Positions 197 to 6,636 of a stretch of DNA of 6,817 nt are shown here, piece by piece. The notes under the pieces were generated by a model. That model did not search any database, was not told the origin of the DNA, and saw nothing but the letters and a program-made list of their open reading frames with translations. The position numbers were made by a program, and so were the translations under genes. How positions within the stretch are numbered: the stretch's first letter is position 1; every line of letters starts with the position of its first letter. The DNA is from Deltaproteobacteria bacterium RIFOXYA12_FULL_61_11 (GTDB taxonomy: Bacteria; Bdellovibrionota_F; JAHFAK01; YA12-FULL-61-11). The stretch is from NCBI GenBank assembly GCA_001799195.1, contig MGSU01000119.1, positions 4,262 through 11,078 of the forward strand, written 5' to 3'.

Positions 197-1645
197 GTGC
201 GGTTGCTCTTCGTCAACCCGACCCTGGCCGAGGACTTCAGCGCGCTGGATATCGCCATCACGGTGCTCGCCTCGGTCGTCAATGCCGGTGGGCGCCACCG
301 CGCGGCCATCTGCGACCTCACCTTCCACAGAAGGCACTGGCAACGCACCCTCGACCTGGCCATCGCTCGGCACCGCCCCGCTCTGATCGCGATGTCGACC
401 AATACCATGTACATGAAATTCGTGCGCCTTGTCGCGGATTATGCGGCCCGTGTCCATGGTCTGCCGGTCCTGGTAGGGGGGCACCACGCAACGAGGTTCC
501 CGGAAGAGACCATGGCCTTGGGCTGCTTCGCACACCTCCTCACCGGGGACGCCGAAGAAACCCTGCCCGGCCTCCTCGACCGGCTCGAGGCCAACCTTCC
601 CGCCGAGGATCTTCCCGGCTACTATCGACGTCTCGACGGGAACACGCTCCGGCCTGCGGCTCCCGGCCGCTTCTACCAGGACCTGCACCGCTTGCCCCAC
701 CTGGATTGGGACCTCTGGGAGGAACTCCCTCGCTATTTCTATTATTTGGGCATGCTCTACATGATCGGCTCGCGCGGCTGTCCCTATCGCTGCACCTTCT
801 GCGACGCGGTAGGACTCGACAATGCCGCAGAAGGTTCCTATTTCCGCCTTGCTCCTCCGGAACAGTACGCCAAGGAATTGGCTTGGCAGTGGGAAAAATA
901 CCGCGGCAAGGGCCTGCGGCTGGCCCAACTCTTCGACCCGGTGTTCACCCTGAACAAACCCTGGGTCTTGGCCTTCGCCAAGGCCTATATCGCCACCGGG
1001 GCGCATCGCGAATTCGGGTACAGCGTCTTTTCCCGCATCGACAACCTGGACCAGGAGCGCATCGAAGCCCTCGCCGAATCCGGGTGCAAACTCCTGCGCG
1101 TTGGCATCGAGGCGGGGAACGAGCGGGTTAGGAAAAATACCTATGCGAAAAATATCTCCAACCACGAGGTCCGCCGCATCATCACCCTGGCGCGCAAACA
1201 CGGACTTGGTTTCACCACCTTCTTCATCCTCGGAGGTCCCTCGGAGGACCGCCGCACCATGCTCGAGACCATCCGGTTGGCCCGCGAGGTCAACCCACGG
1301 CGCAGCGCCTTCTTCATCTACAAACCCTTTACCTCCGAGGGGCTGAAACAACTCCGGGAACATGGGTGTTCGGTCCACGAGGATCGCTGGGCCGCAGCCG
1401 ACAACATCTCGTTCGGTGCGGTCTTCGATTCTCCAAACTTCTCACGCGCAGAAGTCCAGGCCCTGCAACACCTGGCCTACTCCGTGACCTTCGGGCAGAG
1501 GCTCCTGGGCATGCTCCGAGAACACCCGGTGCTCTATTTCGCGCGGCTCTTCGCCTATGTCGGCCGCGGGTTGGCAGACGGGCTCTCCCCTGCCTACCTG
1601 GCCATGTATTTCCACGTCTACGGGTACGATTACATCGATCATTGA
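197..1645 (+). CDS. Cobalamin-binding-domain radical SAM enzyme (B12-binding/radical SAM, BchE-like superfamily), substrate unknown
   Basis: This 482-aa protein has the two-domain layout of the B12-binding radical SAM class. Residues about 1-130 form the Rossmann-like cobalamin-binding domain, opening MRLLFVNPTL and carrying the typical GGHHATRFPEET segment (GGHH at 94-97). The radical SAM core follows, with the 4Fe-4S cluster motif CPYRCTFC (Cys195, Cys199, Cys202), a VGIEAGNERVRK strand near residue 300 that fits the SAM-binding side of the barrel, and GGPSED at about 346-351. The C-terminal 100 residues are family-variable. Enzymes of this class cleave S-adenosylmethionine reductively and catalyse methylations, cyclisations or rearrangements in cofactor, lipid or natural-product pathways; nothing here tells which. 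The lower-ligand motif DxHxxG of classical B12 proteins is not visible, as in many members of this class. It starts with GTG behind a strong ribosome binding site and is probably co-transcribed with the upstream partial gene. It is likely cytoplasmic and oxygen-sensitive. Family assignment is firm, function open. Confidence 0.92.
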   Translation: MRLLFVNPTLAEDFSALDIAITVLASVVNAGGRHRAAICDLTFHRRHWQRTLDLAIARHRPALIAMSTNTMYMKFVRLVADYAARVHGLPVLVGGHHATRFPEETMALGCFAHLLTGDAEETLPGLLDRLEANLPAEDLPGYYRRLDGNTLRPAAPGRFYQDLHRLPHLDWDLWEELPRYFYYLGMLYMIGSRGCPYRCTFCDAVGLDNAAEGSYFRLAPPEQYAKELAWQWEKYRGKGLRLAQLFDPVFTLNKPWVLAFAKAYIATGAHREFGYSVFSRIDNLDQERIEALAESGCKLLRVGIEAGNERVRKNTYAKNISNHEVRRIITLARKHGLGFTTFFILGGPSEDRRTMLETIRLAREVNPRRSAFFIYKPFTSEGLKQLREHGCSVHEDRWAAADNISFGAVFDSPNFSRAEVQALQHLAYSVTFGQRLLGMLREHPVLYFARLFAYVGRGLADGLSPAYLAMYFHVYGYDYIDH

Positions 1646-1651
1646 GCTTCC

Positions 1652-3331
1652 TCAGAGCACCCGTCGGCGCCTACACGGAGGAGGTAGGTCTCGTTCTTCT
1701 TTTCTGTCCCTGACCCACACCTGGAGCCGGACGTCGTCGTGCTCCCGGAGGGGCAGGTCGATCGCGGAACGCCAGCCGCTCTCGACCAGTTCCAACCAAG
1801 TCGGGAGATGTCGTTCGAGCCAGGACAGTTCCAGGTCCGGAACCCGGGCGTCATAGAAGGGGCGGGTGGGCAGGATCAGGATGTCGACCGCTGCCCTGAC
1901 CACCTTGTCATCGTGGGTCTCGGCGCTGAGCTGAGAGAGCGAGACGAACTCCTGGGCTCCCAACCGGTGGGCCACTCCCCAGAGATCTCCACCCGGGATG
2001 AAGGTATCGGCGAAGAGCTGAACGGCCATGAGCTTACGCCTCGGAGACGCGGGTTCGAACTGCTCGAGCGACCAATGCCCCTCTGTCAAGACATACGGTT
2101 GTCGTAAACCTTCGGAGAAGAATTGCCGATCGAAGGACCCGTAGGTGAACTGACGCACTTCGCTGGACTCGCGCACCGTCTGGACCGCTGGAGGAGCGAG
2201 GAAGAGCAGGGTCAAACCGGCGGCCACAAGGGGCTTCCGAGGAACGAGCAGGCCGAGAATATCGCGCCAAGCCATGGAGAGAAGCAAGGCTCCCACCGGT
2301 ACGAGGACCAAGGTGTACCGCGTGCTCTTGGCCAGGACCAGGATCGAATAGCAGAGGTAGGGCCAAGCAGCCACAGAGGGGAGCCAGAGGGGCAATCGCC
2401 GGCGTACCCCGAGCCACAGGACGGAGAGGAGCGTCAACGCCCCAAGGTACCCTCCGACCTGGTGCTCCCACCACAAACGGCCGAAGGTGACGAAGTCAAT
2501 TCGGAGTGCCGAGGTGAACAGCACCGTCGGCTTATCCTCTCGAAGCTGCTGCAACACCTCGGGAAGGTGTTCGAAATACCAGGGGGCCGCGCATACGCAG
2601 CAGAGCGTGGCGGCCAGGGCAGTGGGGAGGATCGCCCTGCGCCATCCTCCGGACGGTACGGACCTTTCTCGGCGCAGCAACACCACCGCTGCACCGCAAC
2701 CGAGGAAGGTGAGGGCGAAGTAGGTGGTGGTCAACATTCCCAGCCCGACGAGCAAGCCCAGCGCCAACGCCGGTAGTACCCGGGTCATGCGAGCCGATTT
2801 CCAGACCGCATAGAGCGCCCACAGCAAGAGTACTTCGGATTGCAGCGCCATCAGGTACAAACGGGAATAGGCATAGATACCCGGGGAGAAGGCATAGAAC
2901 CAGGCCGCGATCAGGCCGAGGTGTGGACCACCGAGGGCACGTCCGAGAAAGAACAGAGCCAGTATCCCGAGCGCGAGAGTCACACTGCCGATCCAGAGGC
3001 TCTGGCCATCCATGCTCGTGCAGCCGAGGTGATGAAGAGCGAGCGCCGGATAACACAGGCCAGGCGGATAGACCGCTCCCCAGGTCGAGACCGTACGCAA
3101 CCATTTCCTTGGGTGTTGCTCGAGGGTCTGCGCAAACGCTTGACAGTTCAGATGATAGGATCCCGCGTGATGCACATCGACGGGAGTTGCATCCCGTTCC
3201 AGGACCAGAGCGTTGCACCACAGGTGGAAGAGCATGAGGCCGAGCAGGAGCGGCCAAGCATACCAATTGTCCCTCATGGAAGGGAGCAGCCCGAAGCGAA
3301 GCACAGAGCTCGGAGAACCAGACCTGGTCAC
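1652..3331 (-). CDS. Polytopic membrane glycosyltransferase-like protein (GT-C fold, PMT/ArnT-like)
   Basis: This 559-aa protein has a hydrophobic N-terminal two-thirds with many membrane helices (roughly 23-44, 112-130, 138-156, 160-177, 184-205 and more up to about 395), followed by a soluble C-terminal part. That is the layout of GT-C glycosyltransferases of the PMT/ArnT type, which move sugars from polyprenyl-phosphate carriers to lipids or proteins on the outer face of the inner membrane. Supporting features are an acidic first periplasmic loop (PVDVHHAGSY, Asp52), a YPPG motif at 88-91, and the segment FSPGIYAYSRLYLMALQSE at about 148-166, which resembles the 'SP...SR...' helix of the family. 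Asp52 as the catalytic acid is inference. The start is uncertain: GTG at 3331 gives the longest frame but has only a weak AGG upstream. GTG at 3304 and ATG at 3277 are alternatives, and all keep the first membrane helix. The next in-frame stop upstream is near 3395. The gene is transcribed away from the ATP synthase operon and ends 6 bases from the radical SAM stop. Donor and acceptor are unknown. Confidence 0.8.
   Translation of the reverse strand: MTRSGSPSSVLRFGLLPSMRDNWYAWPLLLGLMLFHLWCNALVLERDATPVDVHHAGSYHLNCQAFAQTLEQHPRKWLRTVSTWGAVYPPGLCYPALALHHLGCTSMDGQSLWIGSVTLALGILALFFLGRALGGPHLGLIAAWFYAFSPGIYAYSRLYLMALQSEVLLLWALYAVWKSARMTRVLPALALGLLVGLGMLTTTYFALTFLGCGAAVVLLRRERSVPSGGWRRAILPTALAATLCCVCAAPWYFEHLPEVLQQLREDKPTVLFTSALRIDFVTFGRLWWEHQVGGYLGALTLLSVLWLGVRRRLPLWLPSVAAWPYLCYSILVLAKSTRYTLVLVPVGALLLSMAWRDILGLLVPRKPLVAAGLTLLFLAPPAVQTVRESSEVRQFTYGSFDRQFFSEGLRQPYVLTEGHWSLEQFEPASPRRKLMAVQLFADTFIPGGDLWGVAHRLGAQEFVSLSQLSAETHDDKVVRAAVDILILPTRPFYDARVPDLELSWLERHLPTWLELVESGWRSAIDLPLREHDDVRLQVWVRDRKEERDLPPPCRRRRVL
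1669..1705 (+). terminator. Weak candidate intrinsic terminator after the radical SAM gene
   Basis: CCTAC at 1670-1674 can pair with GTAGG at 1684-1688 around a 9-base loop, with a possible outer G-U pair (1669/1689). A pyrimidine stretch rich in T follows (1690-1705). It lies about 25 bases past the radical SAM stop and inside the 3' end of the convergent glycosyltransferase gene. The stem is short and the T tract is interrupted by C and G, so this is only a candidate. Confidence 0.25.
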
Positions 3332-3362
3332 CTGGACGACCTGGGGATCGGTACACCCCTTA

Positions 3363-3392
3363 ACCCTAGCCTCCTGAAGAGGGCCGGGTCAA
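3363..3392 (-). promoter_or_regulatory. Weak candidate promoter for the glycosyltransferase gene
   Basis: On the minus strand TTGACC (3392-3387, five of six matches to the -35 consensus) is followed after 18 bases by TAGGGT (3368-3363, three of six to the -10 consensus). Transcription would start near 3356 and leave about 25 bases before the GTG at 3331. The position is sensible but the -10 box is poor. Confidence 0.3.
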
Positions 3393-3464
3393 CTCCATCG
3401 TACTAGGTCCACCATCCTGCCACAGCCGGCGAGACCAGGTGTTCCGAACTGCCCCGTAAATCAT

Positions 3465-3493
3465 TTGACATTTCCTCGGCAGGCACTTACAAC
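3465..3493 (+). promoter_or_regulatory. Sigma70-type promoter of the ATP synthase operon
   Basis: A perfect -35 box TTGACA (3465-3470) is followed by a 17-base spacer and TACAAC (3488-3493), which matches the -10 consensus at four of six positions including the key T1, A2 and A5. The spacing is ideal. Transcription should start near 3500 and give a leader of about 70 bases before the ATG at 3570. It is the only strong promoter-like pair I found in the divergent intergenic region, and no a/c subunit genes lie between it and the stalk gene, so it probably drives the whole operon. I see no clear operator or riboswitch in the leader. Confidence 0.65.
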
Positions 3494-3556
3494 TGCGTCG
3501 CGTTTGCAGCAGGCCCCCACAGCGCACAGGCCTCGCCGCGTTCACGACCCACTGTC

Positions 3557-3565
3557 GAGAGGAGG
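3557..3565 (+). promoter_or_regulatory. Ribosome binding site deciding the start of the b'-b fusion gene
   Basis: GAGAGGAGG lies 4 bases before the ATG at 3570. The reading frame is open further upstream to a TTG at 3465, but that TTG is part of the -35 promoter box, so the upstream extension is not translated and ATG 3570 is the start. Confidence 0.85.
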
Positions 3566-3569
3566 ACCG

Positions 3570-4535
3570 ATGCTCGAGCTCGACCCCCTGTTGCTCCTCA
3601 TCCATCTTGGCATCTATCTCGTTTTCCTCTTTCTCTTCGGGACCTTTGCCGTGAAACCCATCGTCGCTCACCTCAAGCTGCGGGAGCAACGGCTCGGCGG
3701 CTTGCGCCGCAAGAGCGACGAACTCGCCGCCGAACTCCAGGCCCTCCGGACCACGCTCGAACAGCGCACCGCCGAAGCCCAGATCGAAGGCGGCAAGCAC
3801 ATGGACGCCGTCCGCAAACGGGCCTCCGACGAGGAACACCGCTTGCTCGAAGAAGCCCGTGCGGCTGCCTCGAACCTGATCAAGCAGACCGAGACGCACC
3901 TGGCCGAGCAACTCGTCACCGCTCGGGCCGACCTCGAACGCCGCCTCTCCGAGATCAGCGGTTCCATCGTCTCGCGGCTCGGTGTCGTGGTACTGGGTCT
4001 CTGCGTCATGCTCGAGGATCAAGCTCTTGCCAGCTCCGCCGAGGGCGGCCATCACGCTTCGATCGGCGATCTGCTCTTCCCGGCCATCAACTTCGCCATC
4101 CTGGTCGTCCTACTCTTCAAGGTCCTCAAGAAACCGCTCTCCACCATGCTCCAGAAACGGCGCACGGGAGTGGCCGATTTCATCGCCCAGCACGAACAAC
4201 GCCAGGAACAGCTCGCGGCCGAGCTCGCTACGCTCCGCGACCGGGTCAGTGGTCTCGACCAGATTGTCGCCGAGATCGTCGAGGACAAACGCGCCGCCGC
4301 CATGGCGGACTATGAGAAAACCCTTGCTCATGCCCGCGCAGTGGCTGCCCAGATCGCCGACAATACCGAACGCATCTGCGCCTCCATGATTGTAAAGGCT
4401 ACGGCCGAATTGGTCGATGAGGCGCTGGATCGGGCGATCGCCGAGGCCGGTCTCCAACTCGCGGGCCGCAAAAACCTCGGGGTGGAGCAGGTGCTCGGCT
4501 CGCCTTCGCTGCGCAACCTCTGGGCTCAGAACTGA
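3570..4535 (+). CDS. atpF: Fused F1Fo ATP synthase peripheral stalk subunits b' and b (AtpF-type, two tandem b domains)
   Basis: This 321-aa protein contains two complete ATP synthase b-type units in one frame. Unit 1 (about 1-137) has a membrane helix at 5-26, a conserved Lys-Pro just after it (K29 P30), then about 100 residues of charged helix, ending ISGSIVSRLG like the usual C-terminus of b' subunits. Unit 2 has a second membrane helix at about 168-186 (INFAILVVLLFKVL), again a Lys-Pro (K188 P189) and basic KRR, then a long charged helix to the C-terminus. Single b or b' subunits are typically about 140-180 aa, so the length fits two. The b/b' pair forms the stator stalk that links the membrane a subunit to delta on top of F1. 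Between the units lies a short hydrophobic stretch (138-148) followed by EDQALA-SS, resembling a signal peptide with an Ala-x-Ala cleavage site. No ribosome binding site precedes the internal GTG (3987) or ATG (4008), and no stop lies near the junction in any forward frame. The gene is first in its operon, and atpH follows after 12 bases. Confidence 0.88.
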   Translation: MLELDPLLLLIHLGIYLVFLFLFGTFAVKPIVAHLKLREQRLGGLRRKSDELAAELQALRTTLEQRTAEAQIEGGKHMDAVRKRASDEEHRLLEEARAAASNLIKQTETHLAEQLVTARADLERRLSEISGSIVSRLGVVVLGLCVMLEDQALASSAEGGHHASIGDLLFPAINFAILVVLLFKVLKKPLSTMLQKRRTGVADFIAQHEQRQEQLAAELATLRDRVSGLDQIVAEIVEDKRAAAMADYEKTLAHARAVAAQIADNTERICASMIVKATAELVDEALDRAIAEAGLQLAGRKNLGVEQVLGSPSLRNLWAQN

Positions 4536-4547
4536 GGAGGCAACCCC

Positions 4548-5087
4548 ATGCTCAAGGAAACCCTGGCCAAGGTGTATGCCGAGTCCCTCTTCAACTTGGC
4601 CCACGCGGCCAAGACCGAACGCGATTGCCTCGACGAACTCCATCACTTCAATCGTTTCCTGCGCCATGAGGTCATCGCCGACTTCCTCACCTCCCCGGTC
4701 GTTCCTCTGGAACGCAAACGCGAGATTTGCACCGAGATCTTCGGTTTGACCACGTTCTCCGAGCCTCTGCGCAACATCGTCGCGCTCTTGCTCGAGCGCA
4801 AGAAGCTCGGCTTGCTCCCGGACATCGAGATCCACTTCACCCGTTTCCTCGAACGCCAGGAGGGCATCCTCCAAGTCGAGGTGCACAGCGGTTTCCCGGT
4901 CGGCGAGAACGAACTGGCGAGCATTGCCGGCAAACTCCACCAACTCTCCGGCGCCACCATCCGCCTACATCCCCGAGTAGACGAAACCCTGCTCGGCGGA
5001 TTAAAGCTGGTGATCGGCGATACGGTTATCGACGGAACGATCAAAGGATACCTGACCACGCTGCGTGAAACAGTCCGCCGCGCATGA
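4548..5087 (+). CDS. atpH: F1Fo ATP synthase subunit delta (OSCP homologue)
   Basis: This 179-aa protein has the usual length and layout of AtpH. An N-terminal helical bundle (about 1-105, opening [18 protein letters not shown]) binds the top of the alpha3beta3 head. The C-terminal domain carries the family signature around residues 144-165 ([15 protein letters not shown], then a DGTIKGYL segment). Delta joins the peripheral stalk to F1 and lets the stator resist rotor torque; it acts on the cytoplasmic face of the inner membrane. In this operon its direct partner is the C-terminal end of the upstream b'-b protein. The start ATG is preceded by GAGGAGG (4534-4540) at a spacing of 7 bases, and this ribosome binding site overlaps the TGA of the fusion gene, so translation of the two is likely coupled. 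atpA follows after 25 bases. No unusual residue or truncation is visible. Confidence 0.96.
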
Positions 5088-5094
5088 CGGACGG

Positions 5095-5106
5095 AAGGAG
5101 AAGGGG
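5095..5106 (+). promoter_or_regulatory. Ribosome binding site region deciding the atpA start
   Basis: AAGGAG (5095-5100) runs directly into AAGGGG (5101-5106). The second copy sits 6 bases before ATG 5113, the first sits 6 bases before an in-frame TTG at 5107. ATG is preferred because it gives the usual alpha N-terminus. A longer reading from GTG 5065 would lie inside atpH and has no support. Confidence 0.6.
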
Positions 5107-5112
5107 TTGCAC

Positions 5113-6636
5113 ATGGAAAACAAGGCGCTCGAGATGAAGGCCGACGAGATCACCAGCATCATCGTCAAGAAGATCGAGGGATTCCAGAAAGAGGTCACCG
5201 TGGCCGAGACCGGCACGGTGCTCACCGTCGGCGACGGCATCGCCCGCGTCTATGGCCTCTCCAACGCCATGGTCGGAGAGCTGATCGAGTTCCCCGGCGA
5301 GAATATGGGCATGGTCCTCAACCTCGAGGAGAGCAACGTCGGCTGCGCCCTATTCGGCCACGACGAGCACATTAAGGAAGGGGACACGGTCAAACGCACC
5401 GGCCGCATCATCTCCGTGCCGGTGGGCGAGAAAATGCTCGGTCGCGTGGTCGACGCACTCGGCACCCCCATCGACGGCAAGGGGCCGATCCAGAGCGACC
5501 TCACCCGCAAGGTCGAGATCAAGGCTCCGGGCATCGTCGCCCGGAAGAGCGTCCATGAACCGCTGCAGACCGGGCTCAAGGCCATCGATTCCATGGTCCC
5601 GATCGGCCGAGGCCAACGCGAGCTCATCATCGGCGACCGTCAAACCGGGAAGACGGCGGTGGCCGTGGACACCATCATCAACCAGAAGCACACCGACGTG
5701 CACTGCATCTACGTCGCGATCGGCCAGAAACGCTCGACCGTGGCCCAGGTCGTGGACAAACTGATGCAACACGGCGCCATGGACTACACCACCGTGGTCG
5801 CCGCCACGGCGAGCGAACCGGCTCCCCTGCAGTTCATCGCCCCCTACACCGGTTGCACCATGGGCGAGTATTTCCGCGACAACGGCAAGCACGCCCTAAT
5901 TATCTACGACGACCTCAGCAAACACGCCGTGGCCTATCGCCAGCTCTCCTTGCTGCTGCGCCGCCCACCGGGACGCGAAGCCTACCCCGGCGACGTCTTC
6001 TATCTCCACTCGCGCCTCCTCGAGCGCGCGGCCAAGATGAACGACGAACTCGGCGCCGGATCGCTGACCGCCTTACCCGTGATCGAAACCCAGGCCGGCG
6101 ACGTCTCGGCCTACATCCCCACCAACGTCATCTCCATCACCGATGGTCAGATCTACCTCGAAGCCAACCTCTTCTACTCGGGTATCCGGCCGGCCATCAA
6201 CGCGGGTCTCTCGGTTTCTCGCGTCGGCGGCGCGGCCCAGATCAAAGCGATGAAGCAGATCGCCGGCATGCTCAGGCTGGAACTGGCCCAGTACCGCGAA
6301 CTCGCCGCCTTCGCCCAATTCGGCAGCGACCTGGACAAATCCTCCCAGAAGCGCCTGCAACGGGGCCGCGTGCTCACCGAGATCCTCAAGCAGGACCAGT
6401 ACGTCCCCCTGCCCGTCGAGAAGCAGGTCCTCATCATCTTCGCCGCGACCAAGGGGTATCTGGACGATTACAAACTCCCGACCCTCTCGCGTTACGAACA
6501 GGAACTCAACACCTACATGGACCAGAAGCACGCTGACCTGCTCTCCGAGCTTGCCAAGAGCGGCAAGATCAGCGAGCAGCTCGAGCAGAAGCTCAAGGCG
6601 GCGCTGGACACCTTCAAGGGACAATTCCGCGAGTAA
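5113..6636 (+). CDS. atpA: F1Fo ATP synthase subunit alpha
   Basis: This 507-aa protein is a full-length alpha subunit (family usually about 500-515 aa). The N-terminal beta-barrel covers roughly residues 25-95, the nucleotide-binding domain about 96-375, and the helical C-terminal domain the rest. The P-loop is GDRQTGKT at 174-181 with Lys180. The Walker B strand is LIIYDDLS with Asp266/267. The position of the catalytic glutamate of beta is a glutamine (VAIGQK, Gln205), as expected for the non-catalytic alpha. The arginine finger that reaches into the beta catalytic site is in SVSRVGG at Arg370. The short loop [14 protein letters not shown] lacks the insertion found in the E. coli protein, which is the common form outside enterics. 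Three alpha alternate with three beta in the F1 head in the cytoplasm. It lies between atpH (25 bases upstream) and atpG (21 bases downstream) in one operon. All key residues are present and nothing looks degraded. Confidence 0.98.

Follow-up and report, generated by a model that had tools for sequence, protein, structure and literature searches.

The peripheral stalk of ATP synthase holds F1 against the rotor, and the equal supply and side-by-side insertion of its chains are a basic question of assembly. Stalks of the bb' type contain b'b heterodimers (PMC9244403). The stretch of DNA analysed here, referred to as the window (6,817 nucleotides, bases 4262-11078 of contig C119 of the draft genome of Deltaproteobacteria bacterium RIFOXYA12_FULL_61_11, reaching the contig end), contains an open reading frame in which an initial annotation, made from the letters alone, had recognised the b' and b stalk subunits fused into one polypeptide. 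Two questions follow: whether the fusion is real, and whether its product could serve as a stalk in one piece.

The fused gene and its operon

Reading of the window for open frames gave a single frame with an ATG start that encodes 321 amino acids (Table 1). A Pfam search matched PF00430 (ATP-synt_B) to two stretches of this protein (71.9 bits, E 7e-20, cut-off 28), and in the genome search both matches again fell within one stop-free frame, which bears out the claim of two b-type units in one uninterrupted frame, with Lys-Pro after each membrane helix (5-26 and 168-186). In both halves an Arg lies eight residues past the Pro (P30-R38 and P189-R197), which we take to be the position of R36 in E. 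coli b; R38 is invariant in the alignment, and structure models give each half a long charged helix. The gene has the operon placement of a stalk gene, next to those for delta and alpha, and strong Shine-Dalgarno sites are present on all genes of the run (fused b'-b, atpH, atpA and atpG). It encodes the b' and b stalk chains of ATP synthase joined end to end, and the fusion implies that both are supplied 1:1, the stoichiometry that the initial annotation had expected.

Table 1 Features of the fused stalk gene and its neighbours (positions in the window)
Feature	Position	Strand	Basis or remark
Shine-Dalgarno AGGAGG of the fused gene	3560..3565	+	Duplex -12.0 kcal/mol
Fused atpF'-atpF, 321 aa, two ATP-synt_B units	3570..4535	+	ORF and Pfam
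b' half, aa 1-137, ends IVSRLG (aligns with IAEKLLG ending separate b' proteins)	3570..3980	+	Alignment
Membrane helix 1, aa 5-26	3582..3647	+	Followed by K29-P30
Third hydrophobic segment, signal-peptide-like h-region, aa 133-148, IVSRLGVVVLGLCVML	3966..4013	+	Hydrophobicity scan
AxA motif A152-L153-A154	4023..4031	+	Signal peptidase I predicted to cut after base 4031
Predicted mature b half, aa 155-321, SSAEGGHH...	4032..4532	+	Start by inference
b membrane helix, aa 165-187 (about 168-186)	4062..4130	+	Followed by K188-P189
atpH (delta/OSCP), separate gene	4548..5087	+	PF00213, E 4e-36
atpA (alpha)	5113..6636	+	TIGR00962, 854 bits
atpG (gamma) start, ends at contig end	6658..6817	+	Position and sequence

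Occurrence in other bacteria

Neighbouring separate b' and b genes are the usual arrangement, as had been stated, and this extends to the class of the window: G001, which comes from another family of that class and is the one further genome that the collection has for the phylum, carries two genes, so that close relatives cannot confirm the fusion. The search was therefore widened beyond relatives: a profile of nine b'+b pairs, of which eight had been joined up from separate genes, was run against 386 genomes from many families, and a full-length, single-frame, stop-free match was obtained in four of these (the window's own genome, G087, G342 and G219). All 14 sampled genomes of the family of G342 (f246) carry the fusion. 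When named genomes were scanned with the G342 protein, this group proved to be Silvanigrellales; among its members are Spirobacillus cienkowskii and, in the family with the 14 fusions, the isolate Fluviispira multicolorata (Silvanigrellaceae). In G442, from the same group, the fused gene lies on a 3.65-Mb contig. The fused arrangement was also found in G430 (phylum of G342) and in G446 (phylum of G219), where it ends at the contig end. Other genomes from those phyla have two genes, and further fusions sought in the phyla of G033, G087 and G273 were not found, except that of G087. The check for the same fusion in relatives, which the initial annotation had proposed, located it in other lineages. 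A plasmid search with the fused protein gave no match, and a search of named-genome contigs with the window protein found no relative.

Several candidates were rejected as fusions. The loci of G413, G403, G406, G423 and G421 show two separate ORFs; in G042, G043, G071, G096, G273 and others both halves were spanned only via stop codons and are adjacent genes; and G368 has a b-delta gene plus a separate b'.

In a tree of atpA, from which G219 was left out because its sequence was too short, the fused label changes at least three times on well-supported branches, the window's own placement being weakly supported. Three gains (window lineage, G087 and Silvanigrellales) are the simplest reading, and gains with losses are possible. 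Judged from these sequences, the b'-b fusion is rare, real and recurrent. Among the papers searched, none was found that describes a b'-b fusion, and an NCBIfam search of the operon returned a B/delta fusion family among its matches and no b'/b fusion family; the fusion is a new arrangement of a known protein pair.

The fused b'-b of G430 (L057 1346-2326), which represents another family of the Silvanigrellales' phylum, shares the WPYxQF motif at the b membrane helix, and this motif suggests that the fusion there may be older than the family.

The joint between the two halves

The initial annotation overlooked a third hydrophobic segment, at residues 133-148, that is followed by ALA|SS. Across the joint the window protein reads IVSRLGVVVLGLCVML-EDQ-ALA, then SSAEGGHH. 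The separate b proteins of relatives usually begin with a basic residue, a hydrophobic stretch, AxA or a similar motif, and a short acidic or glycine-rich stretch before the membrane helix, as in G057 (...TIALA|SEAGEAS), G043 (...SIAYA|AEEGEH) and G387 (...GWALA|AGEGGH). Read against these starts, the joint is the end of b' running straight into what would be the signal peptide of b. In the window protein the h-region is short (some 12 residues are strongly hydrophobic) and E149-D150 lie in the c-region, two features that tell against a cut at this site.

A hydrophobic segment lies between the halves in every fused protein scanned (15/15), and the AxA spacing is kept in most, the motif being imperfect in G434, G441, G430 and G087. 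Within 14 fusions of the Silvanigrellaceae clade, whose pairwise identity falls to 26%, the columns of A152 and A154 hold Ala in 12 proteins each and the neighbouring columns are variable. When one near-copy was dropped, A-x-A stood in one column pair in 10 of 13 clade proteins, a count that none of 20000 shuffles within each sequence attained, in which relatedness is not removed. A154 is also invariant in a five-protein alignment at about 20% identity.

Some bacterial b subunits have signal-peptide-like starts, and such starts make b'-b fusions topologically possible. Starts of this kind, with AxA or a similar motif, were observed on separate b genes in several phyla (L036, L039, L040, L042, L044, L048 and L065).

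Predicted structure and the uncut chain

AlphaFold2, run on a five-sequence alignment, predicted long helices for both halves, whose modelling the initial annotation had suggested, at residues 6-129 and 176-299, the second with a one-residue break at 228. Over much of the cytoplasmic part of each half the pLDDT exceeds 90, and it is below 50 at 130-172. Fold searches with this model gave generic long-helix matches only and were uninformative.

The product might stay uncut as a three-helix membrane protein, in which b' is folded or bent back to the membrane to give a stalk of new shape. Three hydrophobic segments do form a topologically consistent chain, and the b' half of the window has GG pairs at 43-44 and 73-74 that could allow a bend, with a turn possible at the latter. 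The GG pair at 73-74 is missing, however, from the other fusions read, the predicted helix 6-129 is unbroken, the b' half matches separate b' proteins in length and can be aligned with them from end to end, and an uncut chain would have no need to keep the AxA spacing; we regard this outcome as unlikely.

The geometry of the chain bears on the same point. In a normal stalk the two chains, b' and b, extend in parallel from the membrane as far as the top of F1. By standard helix dimensions, rather than a model of the whole complex, b' residues 30-129 span about 150 Å as a helix (1.5 Å per residue), and with residues 133-150 placed in the membrane about three residues would connect that segment to the top of b'. 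The whole joint when stretched, about 36 residues, would reach at most about 125-135 Å, against roughly 180 Å to the periplasmic face. The joint is too short for that return, so an uncut chain could not put both halves in their usual positions and, on these dimensions, cannot form a normal parallel stalk. The proposal of a one-polypeptide stalk is thereby divided: the gene fusion is real, but the third hydrophobic segment, the cleavage motif and the short joint speak against a finished single chain with two helices.

A proposed precursor and its processing

Since the geometry of an uncut chain fails, cleavage is the simplest way out. The locus is probably a true atpF'-atpF fusion that retains the signal peptide of b at its joint and encodes a precursor that is cut to give a 1:1 b'b stalk. 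The ancestral b gene would have encoded a cleavable signal peptide at its start; once the stop and spacer that separated neighbouring atpF' and atpF were lost, that peptide would have remained at the joint. Insertion would proceed from b' (N-out, with its helix in the cytoplasm) through the internal signal sequence (in to out) to b (out to in). Signal peptidase I would then cut after A154 to leave a mature b starting SSAEGG. A putative second cut would free the C-terminus of b' through signal-peptide peptidase, an RseP-like protease or a cytoplasmic protease, and both chains could then pair in equal numbers as an ordinary parallel b'b stalk. The genome has three matches each to the S26 (signal peptidase) and M50 protease families, which is ordinary, though necessary for cleavage. 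On balance we also favour the wider proposal that several lineages make a b'-signal peptide-b precursor whose cleavage by signal peptidase and by a further protease has to precede assembly, and that such precursors arose by repeated stop loss where b has a signal peptide.

If the chain is cut, assembly of ATP synthase would depend on signal peptidase; if it is uncut, the stalk would have an unknown shape. A family-wide b'-b fusion with cultured members offers a direct test of stalk assembly.

Sequencing error, assembly artefact and internal starts

None of the three forward frames has a stop between 3880 and 4150, the nearest being a TGA at 3877 in frame +1, in agreement with the initial annotation. 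With no stop in any frame across the joint, no single indel yields two genes, and a one-base indel artefact is ruled out. GC by codon position is unchanged through the joint and of coding type throughout the gene. A larger artefact, in which the metagenome contig lacks a piece carrying a stop and a new start, would be in keeping with the draft state of this metagenome assembly (342 contigs, with an N-gap close to the window), and with the separate genes of the class relative G001. We consider it very unlikely, as the joint has no Shine-Dalgarno site, no single-base indel can divide the frame, and the same architecture occurs independently elsewhere, including in an isolate and on a very long contig; the presence of the fusion in other lineages makes a one-off artefact unlikely. 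The earlier judgement that sequencing error is an unlikely cause is upheld by the independent fusions in G087, in G219/G446 and in 14/14 family genomes.

An internal start at GTG 3987 or ATG 4008, both of them in frame, might make a separate b besides the fused chain. Shine-Dalgarno pairing at these codons is only about -3.3 to -3.5 kcal/mol, compared with -8.8 to -12.4 kcal/mol at the operon's real starts, and the claim that no ribosome binding site precedes an internal start therefore holds. The joint of G342 is without an in-frame start codon, so that b there cannot arise by internal initiation at the joint and must derive from the fused product, and every b' would in any case still be fused; internal initiation is accordingly given very little credence.

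Comparison with known systems

Separate b' (AtpF'/AtpG/AtpX) and b (AtpF) proteins of the bb' type, bacterial or chloroplast, are likewise ATP-synt_B proteins encoded in the order b'-b-delta-alpha; as in both halves of the window protein, a membrane helix is followed by Lys-Pro, with an Arg eight residues later. The window differs in having one gene and one frame, with the signal peptide of b kept as an internal segment. Mycobacterial b-delta (NCBIfam PRK13428, subunit B/delta) is also a natural fusion involving the peripheral-stalk b, but its joint sits where the ends of the chains come together, at the top of F1, and no return to the membrane is needed. In the window delta is separate and the fused chain has no OSCP/delta part; PF00213 is absent from it and was found only in the ORF at 4548-5087, and identity with b-delta was rejected on this ground. 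Subunit b of the alternate F1F0 ATPase (N-ATPase; TIGR03321) is also a long b-type protein, but consists of one long b unit compared with two here, and this identity was rejected because the window protein scores 65.7 bits against a TIGR03321 cut-off of 224.7.

The cytochrome b/c1 precursor encoded by Bradyrhizobium fbcH, a precedent, comprises two subunits of a bioenergetic complex in one chain with an internal signal peptide, and is cut by signal peptidase. The fused stalk protein resembles an internal-signal precursor of this kind in having a hydrophobic stretch (aa 133-148) and then A152-L-A154 at the start of its second protein. The complex is a different one, however; cleavage is established for fbcH and predicted here, and b' would need a second cut.

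Genome context

The source genome is a draft of 4.64 Mb in 342 contigs and is about 87% complete. Its only other strong b match is a 282-aa protein on contig C264 that scores 323.5 bits, above the TIGR03321 cut-off of 224.7, and belongs to the alternate F1F0 ATPase; in this 87%-complete genome no stalk gene other than the fused one was thus found for the canonical ATP synthase. That it is a decayed or unused copy, with another stalk gene serving the cell, would fit the incompleteness of the assembly, but is scarcely credible for a gene that heads the atpH-atpA-atpG run, has both halves complete, an open frame and coding-type GC by codon position throughout, and competes with no other strong b match than that of the alternate enzyme.

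Part of the alternate F1F0 (N-ATPase type) operon was located at L033 (G000:C264:1-6124), with alpha at 2977-4644 (-) and b at 4617-5462 (-), which exceed the TIGR03324 and TIGR03321 cut-offs respectively. In the window itself, the gene at 1652-3331 (-) encodes a 559-aa multi-helix membrane protein that had no match at E 0.001 among Pfam and NCBIfam models and by eye is PMT/ArnT-type glycosyltransferase-like. An N-gap (L032 4212-4261) immediately precedes the window. Two adjacent B12-binding radical SAM-like genes (+) lie at L032 about 3068-4211, assigned by eye only, and at window 197-1645, which matches PF02310 and PF04055 and, below cut-off, resembles ApyD/HpnJ-type families.
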